Below are positions 10,124 to 18,560 of a stretch of DNA of 39,091 nt, piece by piece. The translations under genes were made by a program, and so were the position numbers. Below the pieces are notes generated by a model that searched no databases, had not been told where the DNA came from, and saw nothing but the letters and a program-made list of their open reading frames with translations. The number at the start of each line of letters is the position of its first letter. Within the stretch, counting starts at the first letter, position 1. Origin of the DNA: Acidobacteriota bacterium (lineage in GTDB: Bacteria > Acidobacteriota > Terriglobia > Bryobacterales > Bryobacteraceae). The DNA is taken from assembly GCA_003223115.1 (NCBI GenBank), contig QHXW01000224.1, positions 1 through 39,091 of the forward strand, in the 5' to 3' direction.

Positions 10124-10169
10124 TTGACACCGCACCCCGGCTCTGCTAACTTTTAATTCATTAAAAGTT
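10124..10169 (+). promoter_or_regulatory. Promoter of the BlaI-M56 operon with overlapping palindromic operator
   Basis: A consensus -35 box TTGACA (10124-10129) is followed after exactly 17 bases by TAACTT (10147-10152) as the -10 box. A perfect palindrome with 10-base arms AACTTTTAAT (10148-10157) and ATTAAAAGTT (10160-10169) and a TC spacer overlaps the -10 box and expected start site. This is where a BlaI/MecI dimer would block transcription, so autorepression is inferred. The gene start is 18 bases downstream. Confidence 0.8.
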
Positions 10170-10187: not shown

Positions 10188-10577
10188 ATGGCACGGCAAA
10201 AATCTCCAACGCTCACCGAAGCAGAATTGCGGCTCATGAATGTGGTCTGGGAAAAAGGGGCAGCCACAGCATCGGATGTGCTTGACGCCCTGCCCAGGAA
10301 GCCGGCGGCGGCTTACAGCACGGTGGTCACTACGCTGCGGATTCTCGAAGAAAAGGGTTACCTGCGGCACACCAAGGAGGGCCGTGCCTTTGTCTATCAT
10401 CCGGTGGTGGACCGCAGCGCGGCCAGCCTCGACGCCGTGCGGCTTCTGCTCCACCGTTTCTTTAAGAATTCTCCCGAACTGTTGGTTCTAAATGTCTTGA
10501 AGCACGAGCGGATTGACCCCGAAGAACTCAGGCGGCTCAAACAATTGATCGAAGAAAGCGAGGCGGAACAGTCATGA
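10188..10577 (+). CDS. BlaI/MecI-family transcriptional repressor
   Basis: 129 residues, the usual length. The N-terminal winged helix (about 8-75) shows the family pattern LTEAELRLMNVVWEKG, TVVTTLRILEEKGYL and GRAFVYHPVV. The C-terminal half (about 80-125) is the dimerisation part and contains the segment normally cut or destabilised upon signalling. It should bind the palindrome just upstream. The stop overlaps the start of the M56 protease gene by four bases (ATGA), so the two are translationally coupled, as in BlaI-BlaR1 pairs. No beta-lactamase lies downstream, so the regulated trait is not apparent. Confidence 0.93.
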   Translation: MARQKSPTLTEAELRLMNVVWEKGAATASDVLDALPRKPAAAYSTVVTTLRILEEKGYLRHTKEGRAFVYHPVVDRSAASLDAVRLLLHRFFKNSPELLVLNVLKHERIDPEELRRLKQLIEESEAEQS

Positions 10578-13570
10578 CCTGGCTTGCTCCTCTCAGTGTG
10601 ATCGCCCGCGCAATCCTGGAAGCGTTGTTCAACGGTCTTTGGCAAGGCTTGGCTGTCTCGGTGGCAGCGGCCTGTCTCATCTGGCTGAGCCGCCGTCCCA
10701 ACGCGGCCACACGTTACGCCGGTTGGTGGTTGGCCCTGGTGACCATTGCTGCGCTGCCCCTGACCGAACCCGGGGTGCGCTTCAGCCCTCCGCTGGCAGC
10801 GGGTCGTGTTGCCGGCGCTTCCGACTCGTTGTTGAGTCTGTCGGACGCGCGCCGGCGTGAAGCCGCTCGCCCAAGGACGCTGATCGCCTCTGCTCCGAAC
10901 CTACCCGTTTCAGACGAGACGATGTCGAGCCGGAACCTGCCAAGTTTGGGCGTTCGTGCGACAAACCCGTTGAACATGCCAGCAGCGAAATCCATCGAAA
11001 GCCGCTTACTCCCGAAATTACCGGTCACCACTTTCCATGTTGGCGATCGTTGGGCGCTGGTGCTATTCGCCGTGTGGCTTTTGGGCGCAGCGTGTATGCT
11101 GGCCCGGCCTCTCTGGAGTCTCACGCACATTGCCCGCATTCGGCGTCGTGCTCTGCCCCTGGGCGCAGAGCATCAGGCCCGTCTGGAAGCCTGGCTTCGA
11201 GTCTCAGGTGGACCACGCCGCGTCCGATTATGCGAAGCTGCCGGCGTTTCGACCCCGATGTCGGTGGGATTGCTCAACCCGCTGATCGTGATTCCGGGCG
11301 AACTCGCCAGTCAATTGAGCCCGGCCGAGTTCGATCACTTGCTGTTGCATGAGCTGGCGCATGTTCAACGCAACGACAACTGGACCCATTTGATTCAGAA
11401 ATTTGTTGAGGCGGTCCTTTTCTTCCATCCGGCTGTATGGTGGATCGGCAGGAAATTGGAACTGGAGCGCGAAAGCGCCTGTGATGATTGGGCGGTGTCT
11501 ATCACAGGTCAGCCCCGGCCTTACGCCGCGAGTCTGGCCAAGCTGGTGGAAGTTTCGGCGCCCTTGCGGGAGCCAATGCTCGCTACGGGAGTGTTTCGCC
11601 GGGCGCGGCAGATCTCGGTTCGCATCGAGCGGCTGCTGGACCGACGCCGGAATGCTAACGCCCGCATCTCGCGGAGCCTGATCTTGGCGATTGTCGTGGT
11701 GCTGGTCTCGATCGCAACAGTCTCGTCCCAAACCGGAGCAGTCCTCGCCAGACCGGCCGCCCAAGTCACCGAACGTCCAGACATTACCGCGGCAGCCGCG
11801 GGTCAGGACCAGGATGACGTCCAGGTTCAGGAGCTTGTAGATCGGATTCAGCAGCTCAAAGAACAGTTACGCCAAGCCGAAAACAGGGTGCGCAAAGCGC
11901 GGAAGATGACACCTCGCGCTGACAAACAAGTGCCGGCCGCGGAGAAATACCTCGAGCAATTTCAGGCACAAATACCGCAGATTGAAGAACAGCTTCAGGC
12001 CCTGAGCGAACAATCTCCTGAGGTCTTGATTCCGCAGGCCAGCCTCGAAATGCAAGCGCTTGGACAACAGATGGCGGCGCTGAACGCACGAAACGATTTG
12101 AACATGCTGCTTAACAGAAATCAGGCGCTGCTCGGTTCCCAGTTGAACCAGGCCGAGCAGCAGCTTCGCGAGCTCATGCAGCGCGACCAAATGCAGAATC
12201 GGGTGATGACCGACAACCTGGCTGAGTTGCACAACCTGGCCGAGGCCAAGGAGCTCGAACAAGTGAGCGCGTTGCTGGCGCAAACGGAGAAATTCGACCG
12301 CAGCAGCACGGAGTTCAACTACCAGCAATCCAATGGCATCTGGACGGGACTCAACTTCCGCACCAAGGGCCAAATCGAATTTGCCGAGGATGACTCCGAC
12401 GTGAAAAGCGTTTCGCCGGGCGGCTCCCTGACCATCGAAGAGCGGAAGGGTTGGACCACGCGCAAGTATGAAGTCACCGCAACCGAACGCCGCTATTGGG
12501 TAAATGGCGCGCCGAAGCCCCTGGATAACGAAGCCAGGGCCTGGATCGCCGCGGTACTGCCCTCAATCATCCGCGAGAGCGCCGTGGGCGCGGACGCGCG
12601 CGTGAAACGCATTCTGAAACAGCACGGAGTAAACGGCGTTCTCGCCGAAATCGGCAAAATCGCGAGCGACCACGCCAAACGGATTTATTTCGCGGAATTG
12701 TTCTCCAGTGAGCCGCTGCCGGCGGACGCACTGCAACGCGCCTCGAGGCAAATTGGCCGCGACATGGCATCGGACGGCGAGAAGGGCCGCTTGCTCATCG
12801 ATATCTTCCCTGCCTTTCTCAAGGAGTCCTCCGGGCGCGCCGAATTTTTCCATGCGGTGAACACCATAGCTTCAGACGGTGAGCACAGGCGCGTGCTTTT
12901 TGCAGTGCTCGAAAAAGACGGAGCCAGCAGGGACACTCTCGTCCTGGTGTTGAACTCAGCCGCGCGCATGGCCTCCGACGGTGAGAAGGGCCGCGTGTTG
13001 AGCCTGGCTGCGGACGCGCCGGCGTTTAACGATTCAGTCAGCGCTGATTTCCTGCATGCTGTAAACACGATGGCGTCCGATGGCGAGCATGCGCGCGTCC
13101 TCATGACTTTGATGCGCAAGGACAAGTTAGGCCGGGACACGCTGGTGATGGTTCTCAAGTCCGCGGGACGAATGGCCTCCGACGGTGAGAAGGGTCGGGT
13201 GCTGATTCGCGCGAGCGAGTTCTACACCAACGAACCCGGTGTTCGCTCGGCATTTTTCAACGCTGCGGCCGCCATGGCTTCGGACGGCGAACACGGCCAT
13301 GTGCTGACTGCTTTGATGGGCAAGAGCGTCCTGGATAAAGAAACTTTTATGGAGATCGCTCGTTCCGCGGCGCGGATGGTCTCCGATGGCGAGAAGGGCC
13401 GCGTGCTCCGTCAGGTCGCCGTGATCTGTCCAGGCGATGATGCCATGATCGACGCGCTGATGCAGGCAGTCTCAACCATCGCTTCCGACAGCGAATATCG
13501 TCGCGTCATGTCCGTCATGACCAGCCGTGGCGATGTCAGCGGAAAGATCGGCAAAATTCGGCACATCTGA
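10574..13570 (+). CDS. BlaR1-like M56 membrane metalloprotease with coiled coil and 34-residue repeat array
   Basis: 998 residues. The N-terminal part is a BlaR1/MecR1-type M56 module with hydrophobic segments at about 12-34, 45-62, 158-178 and 366-386. The zinc site HELAH is at 259-263 and the downstream Glu lies in ELERESACDDWA (about 297-307). M56 sensors cleave or inactivate their cognate BlaI repressor in the cytoplasm. After the last membrane segment there is no penicillin-binding sensor domain. Instead there is a Gln/Glu-rich coiled coil (about 415-575), a small beta-rich region (about 590-640), and nine repeats (696-998) built on an ASDGE core followed by K or H and RVL. The repeats should lie outside the cytoplasm and are the obvious candidate sensor surface. 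The ligand is unknown. Confidence 0.88.
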   Translation: MTWLAPLSVIARAILEALFNGLWQGLAVSVAAACLIWLSRRPNAATRYAGWWLALVTIAALPLTEPGVRFSPPLAAGRVAGASDSLLSLSDARRREAARPRTLIASAPNLPVSDETMSSRNLPSLGVRATNPLNMPAAKSIESRLLPKLPVTTFHVGDRWALVLFAVWLLGAACMLARPLWSLTHIARIRRRALPLGAEHQARLEAWLRVSGGPRRVRLCEAAGVSTPMSVGLLNPLIVIPGELASQLSPAEFDHLLLHELAHVQRNDNWTHLIQKFVEAVLFFHPAVWWIGRKLELERESACDDWAVSITGQPRPYAASLAKLVEVSAPLREPMLATGVFRRARQISVRIERLLDRRRNANARISRSLILAIVVVLVSIATVSSQTGAVLARPAAQVTERPDITAAAAGQDQDDVQVQELVDRIQQLKEQLRQAENRVRKARKMTPRADKQVPAAEKYLEQFQAQIPQIEEQLQALSEQSPEVLIPQASLEMQALGQQMAALNARNDLNMLLNRNQALLGSQLNQAEQQLRELMQRDQMQNRVMTDNLAELHNLAEAKELEQVSALLAQTEKFDRSSTEFNYQQSNGIWTGLNFRTKGQIEFAEDDSDVKSVSPGGSLTIEERKGWTTRKYEVTATERRYWVNGAPKPLDNEARAWIAAVLPSIIRESAVGADARVKRILKQHGVNGVLAEIGKIASDHAKRIYFAELFSSEPLPADALQRASRQIGRDMASDGEKGRLLIDIFPAFLKESSGRAEFFHAVNTIASDGEHRRVLFAVLEKDGASRDTLVLVLNSAARMASDGEKGRVLSLAADAPAFNDSVSADFLHAVNTMASDGEHARVLMTLMRKDKLGRDTLVMVLKSAGRMASDGEKGRVLIRASEFYTNEPGVRSAFFNAAAAMASDGEHGHVLTALMGKSVLDKETFMEIARSAARMVSDGEKGRVLRQVAVICPGDDAMIDALMQAVSTIASDSEYRRVMSVMTSRGDVSGKIGKIRHI
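12659..13567 (+). repeat. Nine tandem coding repeats, 34 residues (102 bases) each
   Basis: Repeat units begin at residues 696, 731, 765, 799, 833, 867, 901, 935 and 969 of the M56 protein: one step of 35 residues and then seven of exactly 34. The core is [MI]-[AV]-S-D-G-E-[KH]-x-x-V-L. The residue after Glu alternates K/H from unit 2 to unit 8, giving a 68-residue super-repeat. The second half of each unit is helix-compatible (for example DTLVMVLKSAGR, ADFLHAVNT). The last unit is truncated at the C-terminus. A two-helix solenoid is inferred from period and composition. Confidence 0.9.
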
Positions 13571-14206: not shown

Positions 14207-14376
14207 GCTGTTTCTTCCTCCGATGCTCAAACAAAATCCGATGAAATACTCGGGTCTAGAGTCAGTTTAAGCATGCACCAAGCAAGGCAACAAGACTGCT
14301 TTACGACGTTCCACCAGATCGAAGTGCTAGAATGCACTGACCAGATTCTGCTTTCGTGAGCCTTTGCACGAGAACC

Positions 14377-15603
14377 ATGAAAATCCTGCGGATCGCTGCT
14401 CTCATCGTTTGCGCCATGGTATTGGCCGGCTTCATCGCCGGGCGCGAATTTGCGCGCGGGAGCCACCTTTCGCTGGTGGATTTTGCGGTTTTACTCACCA
14501 ATCCTCCCGCAGTCGGGGTCCTGGGGGGCGACTCGCTCGCGCGCTTACCCGTTGCATCCGCTGAAATCCTGCCGGGAAGCGTGTCACGCGCGGTCCGCTA
14601 CCAGGAAAAGAGTCAGTACCTGAACCACACGAGAACGGTGGTGACCCACACGATCGACGATGCGACCCAATACGTGCCTGTTTGTCTCGATACGCTCGAT
14701 AAGTATGGAGTGAAAGCCACCGTTTTCGTCAGTACCGAGGTGCAGCCCATTTCGCAGCTCTGGCCCCGGCTCGAACGGGCGGTTGGAAACGGCCATGAAA
14801 TCGGATCCCACTCGCGCCGGCACCAGTGCCACTGGCCGGACACGGCGATGTTTTGCTTTCGGGCTTATAGCGATTACGAATTGTCAGGTTCGCGCGGCGA
14901 TATTCTGCGGCATACGACTCAACCCTATGTCTGGTCCTGGTGTTATCCCTGCGGAAACTGCGCGGCCTTGGACTTCGTGCACAGGAAGACCGCGCACGCC
15001 GGATATCTGATAGCTCGTAACTATCCCGATGAAGTACACGACGGCCACGTGCTGCCGTACTTACAAACCTATGATGCTCACCCCTACAATGCGACTTACA
15101 CGCAGGTGGTGCAAAAAATGGGCGGCATCGCGCAGAACGGCCGCACCGGCGTGAGTGAGGTGAATGCCAAGTTCGACGAAGTCTACCAGCGTGGCGGCAT
15201 TTACAACTTCATGTCACACCCCCAGTGGCTCGATTATGGACCCGGCAAATTCTACGAAACAGCATTTGGCGCATATAGCCGGCCGTCAGGATATCTGGTA
15301 TGTGCCCATGGGGCGCTGTACACCTATCACACGGTCCGGGAGAGCACCTTGGTTCGCGCTCTCGATCCAAAACAGTCGAAAGGGAGATTCGCGACCTACA
15401 ACAATCTTGATCCGCATGTTTACATGAACGCCATCACCCTGGAATTTGACGCTGGTCCAGCAACCGGGATCTTCCCTAATGGCAGAGCGATCAACGAGCG
15501 AAGCTTGGGAGTGACGGATCGCTGGAATGAAGAATATTTTCGCCGTGAGGACGCGAGAATTTATCTGACTGTTCGGCCCAATCGTATTCTGGAGTTCAGA
15601 TGA
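14377..15603 (+). CDS. Exported polysaccharide-deacetylase-like (NodB-fold) protein
   Basis: 408 residues from the ATG at 14377, which opens a signal peptide or anchor (MKILRIAALIVCAMVLAGF); a GTG seven codons upstream (14356) is the alternative. Residues about 85-330 resemble the NodB/CE4 fold: THTIDDA (91-97, normally TFDDG), TVFVSTE, and GHEIGSHSRRH (139-149) with the metal-binding HxxxH. The usual RPPYG arginine motif is replaced by a Cys-rich segment (SWCYPCGNCAA). Catalysis is therefore possible but not assured; substrate unknown. Its TGA overlaps the ATG of the next gene (ATGA), so the two are co-translated and probably work together outside the cytoplasm. Confidence 0.75.
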   Translation: MKILRIAALIVCAMVLAGFIAGREFARGSHLSLVDFAVLLTNPPAVGVLGGDSLARLPVASAEILPGSVSRAVRYQEKSQYLNHTRTVVTHTIDDATQYVPVCLDTLDKYGVKATVFVSTEVQPISQLWPRLERAVGNGHEIGSHSRRHQCHWPDTAMFCFRAYSDYELSGSRGDILRHTTQPYVWSWCYPCGNCAALDFVHRKTAHAGYLIARNYPDEVHDGHVLPYLQTYDAHPYNATYTQVVQKMGGIAQNGRTGVSEVNAKFDEVYQRGGIYNFMSHPQWLDYGPGKFYETAFGAYSRPSGYLVCAHGALYTYHTVRESTLVRALDPKQSKGRFATYNNLDPHVYMNAITLEFDAGPATGIFPNGRAINERSLGVTDRWNEEYFRREDARIYLTVRPNRILEFR

Positions 15604-18560
15604 AATTTCGATTTCTTTTGCACGCACTAGCTGTTTTCAGCCTTTCTTGTTACCTGTCGTGCCGCAAATCCGCTCCACCCTATGCCGTAAACGACGCTCT
15701 AAAAACATTTCGCATCGAGCCCGGATTTCATATTGAGAAATTTGTGCTGGAGCCCGTGGTCGTTTCGCCGGTAGCCATGGACTTTGACGAGAACGGGCGG
15801 ATCTACGTGGTTGAAGATCGCGGGTACCCGCTCAGCACCGATAACCCGCTTGGGCGCGTCAAACTGCTCGAAGATACGAACGGAGATGGCGTTCCGGATA
15901 AAGTCACCATCTTCGTCGACAGGCTGGTGATGCCCACCGGAGTGATGCGATGGAAGAAAGGCATTCTGGTAACCGATGCTCCGAATGTCTGGTATTTCGA
16001 AGATACGAACGGCGACGGCGTAGCGGACGTCAAGCAGATCGTACTGACCGGGTTTGCATTCACAAATCCTCAGCACACGGTGAATAATCCCTCCTATGGT
16101 CTGGATAACTGGATCTATCTGGCGAATGAGGGTCCGGCCCGGGCAATTGTGTACAAGAAGCAGTTTGGCGATTTGGGCTCGGACATTCGATTTCCGGACT
16201 GGCCGCAGTCACCGGCGCTGAAACAACACGATCGCAGCGTGCGTTTCCGGCCTGACACTCACCAGTTGGAGGCGCTTTCCGGAAGATCGCAGTACGGCCA
16301 GGCATTCGATGACTGGGGCCACTATTTCACCGTCAACAACTCTGACCATTCCCGGGAAGAGATCATTGCCGCGCGCTATCTGGAGCGAAACCCGGATCTT
16401 CCCATTTCTTCGGCGATGCAGCAGATCTCCGATCACGAAGCCGCGGCCAAGGTTTATCCCATCACAGTTCATCCCCATTTCGAGATGCTCACCGACGTTG
16501 GACAATTCACGTCGGCTTGCGGGATCACCTTCTATCACGGCACATTATTTGTGGCGGAGCCGGTGCACAACCTGGTGCACCAGGATTTGCTCTCGGCTTC
16601 CGGCGCCACGTACGTCTCACGCCGCGCGCATCCCAATGTGGAATTTCTGGCTTCGACCGACCCCTGGTTCCGGCCGGTGAATTTCAAAATCGGGCCAGAC
16701 GGCGCGATGTACCTCATGGATTTTTACCGGATGATGATCGAGCATCCCGAATGGATGGCTACCGATGCCGCGAAATCTCCCGACCTGACTAAAGGCATCG
16801 ATCGCGGCCGCATTTATCGCATTGTTCCTGATGGAATTGCTCCGGCGCGAGCCGTCAAACTGGGTTCGGCTTCGAACCCCGAGCTGGTGCGAGAACTCGA
16901 CAATCCGAATATCTGGTGGCGCCGCACCGCACAACGCCTGCTGGTGGATCGGCAGGCTGCGGACGTTACTGCGGAGCTTGCCCGCATGGCCGCTCAAGGC
17001 CAATCGGCCACCGGACGTCTGCATGCCCTGTGGACGCTGGAGGGTCTTGGAAAACTGGAGAACAGCAACATACAGCGCGCACTCACGGACGTCGAGCCGG
17101 GTGTACGGGAAAACGGGATCATTCTGGCCGAGCCGAGACTAGCCAAATCGCCGGAACTGGCGCAAAAGCTGTTGGGAATGGTGGACGACACGAACGCCAG
17201 AGTGCGTTTCCAGTTGCTGTGTACGCTTGCAGGTCTGACAACGGCCGAGGCCCGGACAGCGCGCGACCGGCTGCTGGTGCACGAGATGGAAGACAAATGG
17301 TTTCAGGTCGCCGCTCTCAGCGCCTCTTCCGACGAAGCGCCGCGTCTCTACCAGACAGCCGTCTCGAGTGGAAAGGCGGAAACACCCGGAAGCGTCAGTT
17401 TTATTCAGCAGGTCGCATCCGTGGTCGGCGCACGCCGCAAACCGGCTGAAATCCAGAATGTAGTCCAGAGAATAGCGCGGTCCACTGAGGATTCCGCTTC
17501 GTGGTGGCGAACCGCCAGTCTCGAAGGGCTGTCTCAGGGGCTGCGGGGGAGAGCGTTCGCGCCCGGTAGTCTTCGAGCGAGCCAGCAAACTCTGCTAAAG
17601 ATCTTTTCCGGTCCCGAGATTACGGTGCGGCGGGCGGCCCTGCGCCTACTCGGTATTACCGGGCTCGCGGCTGGCGGCGAGCGTGAACTCGCCTCCGCTC
17701 TAAGTGCCGTGAGCGATGACCAGACAGATCCCGACCTCCGGGCCGACTCCATCGGCCTCTTGGCGCTCGCCGGACCCCAACCACACGAGGGCTTGCTCAA
17801 GAAGCTGGTGGACCCGCATCAGCCGGCGCAGGTGGAAGCAGCGGCCGTAGACGCGCTTGGCAAGATTAAAGGCGACGACGTAGGAAAATTTCTGCTGGCT
17901 GCCTGGCGCGCTCTGCCGCCGGATGCCCGCATGGAAGCGGCGGACGCGATGTTCCTGGAACCCAGCCGCGTCCGGCTGCTGGTGGCCGCGCTCAAAAGCG
18001 GCGACGTCCAGCCCTGGACCCTTGGGTTTCGGCACCGTCACCGGTTGATCATGTTTGACGATCCGGCTATTCGAGATTCGGTGCGGCCGGTCCTCGATCA
18101 GAGTACCAGCGATCGGGAAAAAGTGGTCCGGCGTTACGAAGCCGGCATCGATCACAACCCGGATGCAACCAAGGGGCGCGAAGTCTTCAAGACTGTCTGC
18201 ATAAAATGCCATCGTTTCGCCGGCTTCGGTGTGCAAGTAGGCCCGGACCTCGCAACCGTGCAGAATCAGCCCAAGACAGCATTGCTCGAAGACATCCTGA
18301 TCCCGAACAAAACCATCTCACAAGGCTATGAAGCCTACGTGGTGGAGACCACGTCGGGCACCCTTGACGGTGTGCTGCATGCACAAACACCGACCACCAT
18401 CACCTTACGCCACGAGGACGGCAAGGAGGACATCATCCAGCGGCGGGACATCAAGCAAATGTACGTGACGAACGTTTCCGCCATGCCGGGTGATATGGAA
18501 AAGCAGATCGATGTTCAGCAGATGGCCGACCTGCTGGAATTTCTGAAGACGGCTCATTAG
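15600..18560 (+). CDS. Exported dehydrogenase-like beta-propeller / HEAT / cytochrome c protein
   Basis: 986 residues with an N-terminal export signal containing Cys residues (FSLSCYLSC), so a lipoprotein is possible. About 30-420 resembles the putative membrane-bound dehydrogenase domain (TIGR02604 type), related to PQQ-type glucose/sorbosone dehydrogenase propellers. It carries two calcium-loop-like motifs, DTNGDGVPD (92-100) and DTNGDGVAD (135-143). About 430-820 is helical and HEAT-like. The C-terminus is a cytochrome c-like domain (TIGR02603 type) with one haem site CIKCH (867-871). This architecture is common in Planctomycetes, Verrucomicrobia and Solibacter. It probably oxidises a sugar-like substrate and passes electrons to the haem. 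It is coupled by a 4-base overlap to the deacetylase-like gene. Confidence 0.85.
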   Translation: MKFRFLLHALAVFSLSCYLSCRKSAPPYAVNDALKTFRIEPGFHIEKFVLEPVVVSPVAMDFDENGRIYVVEDRGYPLSTDNPLGRVKLLEDTNGDGVPDKVTIFVDRLVMPTGVMRWKKGILVTDAPNVWYFEDTNGDGVADVKQIVLTGFAFTNPQHTVNNPSYGLDNWIYLANEGPARAIVYKKQFGDLGSDIRFPDWPQSPALKQHDRSVRFRPDTHQLEALSGRSQYGQAFDDWGHYFTVNNSDHSREEIIAARYLERNPDLPISSAMQQISDHEAAAKVYPITVHPHFEMLTDVGQFTSACGITFYHGTLFVAEPVHNLVHQDLLSASGATYVSRRAHPNVEFLASTDPWFRPVNFKIGPDGAMYLMDFYRMMIEHPEWMATDAAKSPDLTKGIDRGRIYRIVPDGIAPARAVKLGSASNPELVRELDNPNIWWRRTAQRLLVDRQAADVTAELARMAAQGQSATGRLHALWTLEGLGKLENSNIQRALTDVEPGVRENGIILAEPRLAKSPELAQKLLGMVDDTNARVRFQLLCTLAGLTTAEARTARDRLLVHEMEDKWFQVAALSASSDEAPRLYQTAVSSGKAETPGSVSFIQQVASVVGARRKPAEIQNVVQRIARSTEDSASWWRTASLEGLSQGLRGRAFAPGSLRASQQTLLKIFSGPEITVRRAALRLLGITGLAAGGERELASALSAVSDDQTDPDLRADSIGLLALAGPQPHEGLLKKLVDPHQPAQVEAAAVDALGKIKGDDVGKFLLAAWRALPPDARMEAADAMFLEPSRVRLLVAALKSGDVQPWTLGFRHRHRLIMFDDPAIRDSVRPVLDQSTSDREKVVRRYEAGIDHNPDATKGREVFKTVCIKCHRFAGFGVQVGPDLATVQNQPKTALLEDILIPNKTISQGYEAYVVETTSGTLDGVLHAQTPTTITLRHEDGKEDIIQRRDIKQMYVTNVSAMPGDMEKQIDVQQMADLLEFLKTAH

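Follow-up and report, generated by a model that had tools for sequence, protein, structure and literature searches.

We report that a gene pair in a 39,091-nucleotide stretch of the genome of a soil bacterium of the Acidobacteriota (contig QHXW01000224.1 of assembly GCA_003223115.1, positions 1 to 39,091; the whole stretch is referred to as the window) joins a BlaI-type repressor to an M56 zinc protease of the BlaR1 type that carries, in place of the beta-lactam sensor of BlaR1, a spacer, a beta domain and a helical solenoid built from 34-residue SDxE repeats. We favour, as fairly probable, the reading that this is an autoregulated blaI-M56 operon encoding a BlaR1-like receptor in which the periplasmic spacer, beta domain and solenoid would control ligand-induced BlaI cleavage. 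The evidence, read from sequences or models, consists of the gene pair, the zinc-site residues, a conserved operator-like site, the fold and a family-wide linkage. The best studied M56 receptors sense beta-lactams, and in staphylococci penicillin resistance is switched on by a gene pair of this kind. Since the same switch is here joined to an entirely different and widespread outside module, M56/BlaI probably serves, at least in Acidobacteriota, as a general platform on which the outside part can be exchanged.

The repressor gene, blaI (10188..10577, + strand), encodes a 129-residue winged-helix protein of the BlaI/MecI type that matches Pfam Penicillinase_R (E 3.4e-32; 111.6 bits, cut-off 22.6) as well as MecI and BlaI in the PDB, and this marks it as the cognate repressor gene. 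Its end overlaps by four bases (ATGA) the start of the M56 receptor gene, a 998-residue open reading frame (ORF) at 10574..13570 (+) with Peptidase_M56 (PF05569) at residues 102-352 (107.6 bits, cut-off 31, E 8.7e-31). The M56/BlaI pairing claimed in the original prediction, which had been made from the letters of the window, is borne out, both Pfam families being far above their cut-offs and the two genes overlapping.

The first 390 residues (10574..11743, +) comprise the zinc protease domain and four helices positioned like the membrane helices of BlaR1, as indicated by Pfam, the AlphaFold model, Foldseek and an alignment to S. aureus BlaR1 (8exp_A; E 1.3e-5). In that alignment the zinc site is H259ExxH263 plus E300xxxD304, i.e. 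the HExxH/ExxxD arrangement of Peptidase M56, and H259, H263, D268, E300, D304 and Y317 are in register with BlaR1 H201, H205, D210, E242, D246 and Y261 (for the roles of these residues and the BlaR1 motif list, see PMC9834060). Together with the Peptidase_M56 score, these paired residues agree with the BlaR1-like protease that had been predicted. The full-length model is middling (predicted local distance difference test, pLDDT, 74.7; predicted template modelling score, pTM, 0.45), and its best PDB matches in Foldseek are BlaR1 structures (8exr_A, 3.0 Å over 170 columns), with model helices at residues 4-38, 44-64, 158-192 and 367-392 in the places of the BlaR1 membrane helices. By hydropathy helices 3 and 4 are clear, helix 1 is weak and helix 2 is under the threshold, and there is an extra weak peak near residue 231. 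The NCBIfam model blaR1_generic reaches 88.7 bits against a cut-off of 400 and covers residues 162-382 only.

Compared with the S. aureus BlaR1-BlaI system (MEROPS M56; PDB 8exp), the window has the same gene pair, the same HExxH plus ExxxD protease domain, the same helix layout in the model with a C-terminal part after the fourth helix, and a BlaI/MecI repressor, whereas spacer, beta domain and solenoid stand where BlaR1 has its beta-lactam sensor. If the membrane orientation can be taken over from BlaR1, this C-terminal part would lie outside. A further difference is the long loop between helices 2 and 3 (residues 66-154; 10769..11035, +; pLDDT under 50), which occupies the place of BlaR1 EL1 and has approximately 89 low-confidence residues compared to 41 in EL1. 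According to PMC9834060, EL1 (BlaR1 residues 56-96) plugs the sensor site until a beta-lactam displaces it, and on this ground we speculate that the loop may act as a built-in peptide ligand for the solenoid.

The motifs that mark a penicillin-binding sensor are SxxK, SxN and KTG. Scanning residues 391-998 gave one SxxK (at 608) and no SxN, KTG or KSG, so that a beta-lactam sensor is very unlikely and BlaR1/MecR1 in the strict sense is rejected as an identity for the protein. That the pair is an ordinary beta-lactam receptor is suggested by the presence of M56 plus BlaI, but this is already contradicted, also by the model, which consists of a beta domain and helical repeats and not of a class D beta-lactamase fold, and we give it practically no credence.

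The part beyond the membrane helices begins with long helices that form a probable coiled-coil spacer (residues 412-543; 11807..12202, +), modelled at 412-444, 456-477 and 491-543, partly with low confidence, and giving weak Laminin_II and SMC matches. Then follow an eight-stranded beta domain (residues 580-648; 12311..12517, +), two long helices leading into the solenoid (residues 652-695; 12527..12658, +), both taken from the AlphaFold models, and the nine-unit SDxE solenoid itself (12659..13567, +). Residues 575-998, modelled on an 11-row alignment, give a pLDDT of 90.3 and a pTM of 0.83, with eight strands within model residues 5-74 and then helices to the C-terminal end. Structure prediction had been named as the check on the repeat array, and it yields a repeating alpha/alpha solenoid and no model lacking a repeating fold. 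Two other claims hold in part. The array had been said to replace the BlaR1 sensor; an SxN/KTG sensor is indeed missing, but the conserved unit is the beta domain plus the solenoid. It had also been placed next to a coiled coil, which is probably there at residues 412-543, but the beta domain at about 580-648, which lies between them, had been missed. The type of spacer varies, being a coiled coil in the window and proline-rich in other members (by eye).

In the model the Ser of SDxE sits one residue ahead of a helix start in all nine units, and it is therefore likely to be the helix N-cap, with S-x-x-E looking like a capping box, in keeping with the capping-box rule for helix starts. No Pfam family matched residues 648-998 alone at E up to 10 or residues 575-998 at E up to 1, NCBIfam gave only chance matches below cut-off for the outside part, PDB sequence searches with that part gave chance hits only, and Foldseek with the 575-998 model found no PDB match at E ≤0.001. 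The statement that ASDGE is not a named repeat therefore holds for Pfam, NCBIfam and PDB sequences, and the searches turned up no characterised family with a known ligand to which the repeat could be assigned. Searches of the open-access literature (supplements and most subscription journals lying outside it) turned up no publication describing M56 proteins that carry repeats of this sort, and among the titles listed by broader searches none concerned them. The SDxE module appears to be a widespread kind that is unnamed among the families searched.

Two known solenoid types were considered. HEAT/ARM-like alpha-solenoids likewise have two helices per unit in a superhelix, helix pairs run throughout our model, and the top VIA matches listed, which score Z 10.4-14.4, have HEAT/ARM proteins among them (Integrator, PP2A A subunit and importins). 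These Z values are at the level of common helical arrangements and the rmsd is 5-16 Å; the best (Z 14.4, rmsd 12.2 over 305 residues) falls in the range of a possible common arrangement. By profile the window protein has no Pfam HEAT match and is not among the three of the 16 alignment members that match HEAT_2 (best E 9e-6), and membership of the HEAT profile family was rejected on this basis. The TPR unit is also 34 residues long with two helices, and Foldseek ranks designed consensus TPRs high among its hits for the module, but at E ~1e-3 and a template modelling (TM) score of ~0.2-0.3; with E allowed up to 10, the window protein matches no TPR family.

A recount on the SD positions (residues 698, 733, 767, 801, 835, 869, 903, 937 and 971) confirms nine units with one step of 35 followed by seven of 34; the unit starts given originally (696, 731, 765 and onwards) lie two residues before SD, and the interval 12659-13567 is correct. 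The alternation of K and H after SDGE in units 2-8 also stands (SDGEK, SDGEH, SDGEK, SDGEH, SDGEK, SDGEH, SDGEK), while the end units differ, unit 1 being SDHAK and unit 9 SDSEY. When residues 641-998 are compared with themselves, identity reaches 0.21 at a lag of 34 and 0.32 at a lag of 68; over lags 10-109, no value in 1000 shuffles exceeded 0.145.

Permuting the order of the seven units gives p = 0.032 for the alternation in the window alone. Among the module proteins collected (loci numbered L below), p was below 0.05 in nine of the ten scored proteins with at least seven units, two of which (L050 and L051) are near copies, with L024 failing; none of 16 proteins with fewer than seven units reached 0.05 save two empty comparisons (L013 and L029). 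Stronger support for the predicted 68-residue A/B super-repeat comes from its phase, which is kept between distant proteins. Cross-protein unit scoring, with positions 34 and 1-4 excluded and the best seven offsets considered, gave 26-47 for one offset parity and 3-5 for the other between the window and L051, and 27-36 versus 3-10 between the window and L019; L055 showed less contrast (14-19 versus 1-4) and L020 a weak one (11-21 versus -3 to 11). One parity scoring far above the other indicates that the repeating unit is the 68-residue pair, which, as judged from these sequences, is common to proteins with different residues at the x of SDxE.

This x, here called the ladder residue, is mostly one per protein and varies from protein to protein (G, Y, F, S or E). 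It was analysed in 40 loci (L123 dropped as a near copy), where 30 proteins with at least four units contributed 206 units; the register was scored on positions 1 and 8-33 only, with a profile seeded from motif-found units. Within-protein agreement at x is 0.66 versus 0.22 in shuffles (z 23), with further rises at positions 34 (z 13.5), 4 (10.7), 2 (7.0), 7 (5.3) and 10 (4.0) and slight ones at positions 5, 6 and 8 (z 2.1-2.5), while positions 1, 9 and 11-33 stay inside two standard deviations of the null. The shuffles ignore relatedness, for which the positions without effect act as a built-in control, but slow change following descent from a single unit would look much the same. With a register set by the motif itself, 22 proteins had initially given 0.80 versus 0.26 at x. 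The ladder is not universal, since L128, L134 and L135 have mixed units.

Recent duplication was rejected as the general cause of the ladder, as codon identity gives no general sign of recent copying: in L048, L052, L053 and L055 73, 184, 137 and 176 of 200 permutations, respectively, were as high as the observed value. It is weakly raised in L054 (25 of 200) and raised in the window (7 of 200), L051 (9 of 200) and L019 (0 of 200), so that duplication contributes in some proteins, perhaps in the window. Unit order is kept across a ladder change between L053 (all G) and L054 (D/E), ranking 6 of 576, with rank 327 of 14400 for L052 versus L054 and rank 1 of 576 for the window versus L051, both G; correspondence is not clear for the window or L051 versus L019 (rank 4 of 36 each). 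All these ranks are somewhat optimistic, the offsets being the best of the super-repeat scoring. The last unit of L054 is still SDGEY, i.e. its internal units have changed and its end unit has not, and turnover of internal units is another possible cause of the L054 change.

We take the pattern to reflect selection acting on a strip at one edge of the solenoid, with either binding or packing as the possible reason. The strip positions 34, 2, 3 and 4 form the turn before, and the start of, the first helix. We raise, as a tentative and rather doubtful idea, that the repeats constitute an undescribed solenoid family in which this strip is set array-wide and swapped in concert, with most helix positions free to drift, and reads a periodic ligand, e.g. 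a glycan, peptidoglycan or a fibrous protein; if true, an M56/BlaI system would sense a polymer with its specificity set by the ladder residue. Plainer possibilities are contact between neighbouring turns, or unit turnover from one founder with slow change at the strip positions. The ladder offers a concrete way into what the module binds, since it singles out the residue to mutate and nature already provides variants there.

The module is patchy but widespread, also in other phyla, and the beta domain is its most widely found part. It was detected in five of 41 near relatives, in at least 29 of 250 genomes of the order (a few being weak matches to other repeats) and in at least 41 of 396 phylum genomes (many of these hits being confined to the beta domain), the own genome included each time; at most seven candidates per genome were scored in the order scan and at most four in the phylum scan, and the counts may be low. 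A genome collection supplied eleven named loci, among them Acidicapsa, Longimicrobiaceae, Zixiibacteriota, Chiayiivirga and Vicinamibacteria. From the loci fetched we tabulated 43 module proteins, leaving out duplicate contig copies and five M56 loci (L085-L089) that have a beta-domain match, no repeat match and a BlaI match in five of five. M56 and module are fused in one frame in 30 of the 43, and blaI is present in the locus of 29 of these 30, the exception (L130) running off its contig; the search across genomes for the repeat beside M56 and blaI, proposed with the original prediction, thus recovers the arrangement. L055 begins where its contig does, so it is possibly a truncated fused gene. 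On the module tree fused and unfused proteins are mixed, with nine changes against a shuffled mean of 11.4 (30 of 500 shuffles as low), and the well supported branches force only two changes. Non-M56 module proteins can begin with a signal-peptide-like segment (by eye, e.g. L048 and L025), which fits a periplasmic place.

In the own genome the SDxE module occurs once, beside nine other M56 matches. Like the window protein, the same-genome M56 proteins ending in TonB_C, TPR or DUF3738 combine M56 with a BlaI-type ORF upstream, but their C-terminal domains are other ones and the SDxE module is found only in the window protein. Such named domains, seen in three of the four sisters scanned, are expected if the outside part is exchangeable. 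Two M56 paralogs of this genome (L006 and L004) show by eye a C-terminal xGVxP repeat with a spacing of about 28-30 residues; this part of L006 has no convincing Pfam match, and the xGVxP repeat is seemingly a second repeat family on M56 proteins.

Upstream of blaI a promoter-like site (TTGACA, 17 bases, TAACTT; 10124..10152, +) was found by eye as a consensus match only, and it runs into a probable BlaI operator, the palindrome CTTTTAATTCATTAAAAG (10150..10167, without strand), whose core TTAATTNNTTAA recurs with at most one mismatch in 19 of the 27 fused-locus promoters. For TTAATTnnTTAA at this tolerance the count is likewise 19 of 27 blaI promoters (11 exact; several of the 19 belong to close relatives), compared to 1.1% of random 130-base stretches. 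Of 29 loci considered, L056 and L130 were unscored since no blaI lay within the allowed distance, and L120 was left out with its promoter cut. By eye, several promoters have the operator twice, once abutting the -35 and once downstream of the -10. A palindrome of the TACTACAnnTGTAGT type (TACTACA type) occurs in two of the 27 promoters at up to three mismatches; TACGAA-type palindromes are visible by eye in promoters of other lineages, and a trial pattern for them matched none of the 27 at up to two mismatches. A regulon search of the 9.1 Mb assembly gave six exact 12-mer sites versus four for the reversed pattern, and seven rows versus four when three mismatches were allowed. One three-mismatch operator-like site, near base 1501 of L067, lies between CpxP/Spy-like and response-regulator genes (labels by eye); it is at chance level and serves as a lead for an envelope-stress target.

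According to the mechanism we favour, blaI and the M56 gene would form an operon that BlaI represses at its own operator-like palindrome. Like BlaR1, the M56 protein would be an inner-membrane protein with the zinc protease site on the cytoplasmic side, and the residues from about 391 on would lie in the periplasm, the spacer holding the beta domain and the helical solenoid. A ligand or partner protein bound by these two may change the membrane domain, upon which the protease would cut BlaI near N102/V103 and derepress the operon. The part after the fourth helix might instead be cut off by signal peptidase and work as a free periplasmic protein, as signal peptidase cleaves the BlaR1 sensor (PMC9834060), AFA motifs are seen by eye after the fourth helix of L052 and L053, and modules without M56 exist. 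In the window there is no clear AxA site at this place, only GAVLA (judged without a signal-peptide predictor), and we regard this alternative as improbable.

Several observations weigh against the receptor reading. We infer the sensor role of the outside module by analogy with BlaR1. Alignment to S. aureus BlaI puts the putative cut at Asn102-Val103 of the window BlaI, while S. aureus BlaI is cut at N101/F102 and Phe at P1' is almost invariant (PMC9834060); with Val at P1' the window BlaI does not have the Asn-Phe repressor cleavage site. Moreover, the counterpart of BlaR1 Arg294 is unsettled between R350 and R353: R350 has the same distance from Y317 as BlaR1 Arg294 and is invariant in six fused rows, but the 8exp_A alignment gaps there and pairs R353 with Arg293 instead. 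The BlaR1 autocleavage Phe has a counterpart, F341, in the window and none in L050-L053 (by eye). A BlaI-type ORF is near eight of the ten own-genome M56 matches, the window's included, in the stretches examined, so that the pairing is general and no special evidence for the SDxE module.

Two other points of this kind also favour the view that the module is an envelope effector or scaffold, for which M56/BlaI only set the amount and the protease reports occupancy or folding. Thirteen of the 43 modules lack an in-frame M56, so the module can function independently of M56/BlaI signalling, and the 9.1 Mb assembly holds no convincing operator except in the own promoter, so the output may be the own operon only. 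In addition, two of the sister M56 proteins end in TonB_C, a domain of energy transfer and not of sensing, and in L074 (3275-5652) a non-M56 module gene lies by eye behind sigma-factor-like and small membrane-protein genes and before an FtsX/MacB-like permease gene. On the other side, the sensor occupies the same place in BlaR1 (PMC9834060) and blaI stands in the locus of all fused copies except the one cut by its contig; we hold the effector view to be possible but clearly less likely than the BlaR1-like receptor.

Finally, some loci show variant arrangements. L056 (3114-6901) contains, one after the other, BlaI-type ORFs, an M56 ORF in which the usual order is reversed, the repeats preceding the beta domain, and a module gene of its own that opens with a signal-peptide-like segment; the system is here split or duplicated. 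Near base 648 of L054/L012, at the start of the module gene, an in-frame signal-peptide-like stretch upstream is split off by a stop codon, owing either to a misassembly or to a recent nonsense mutation. L116, L117 and L118 are weak profile matches (E 7e-8, 2.6e-4 and 5.5e-4); two of them, L116 and L118, are by eye large proteins of helical repeats, L118 also has a NACHT domain, and a distant link between SDxE repeats and NLR-like sensors is possible. Downstream in the window, a polysaccharide deacetylase gene followed by a gene for a DUF7133, HEAT_2 and cytochrome c protein (14356-18560) begins 785 bases past the M56 gene and probably forms a separate operon.

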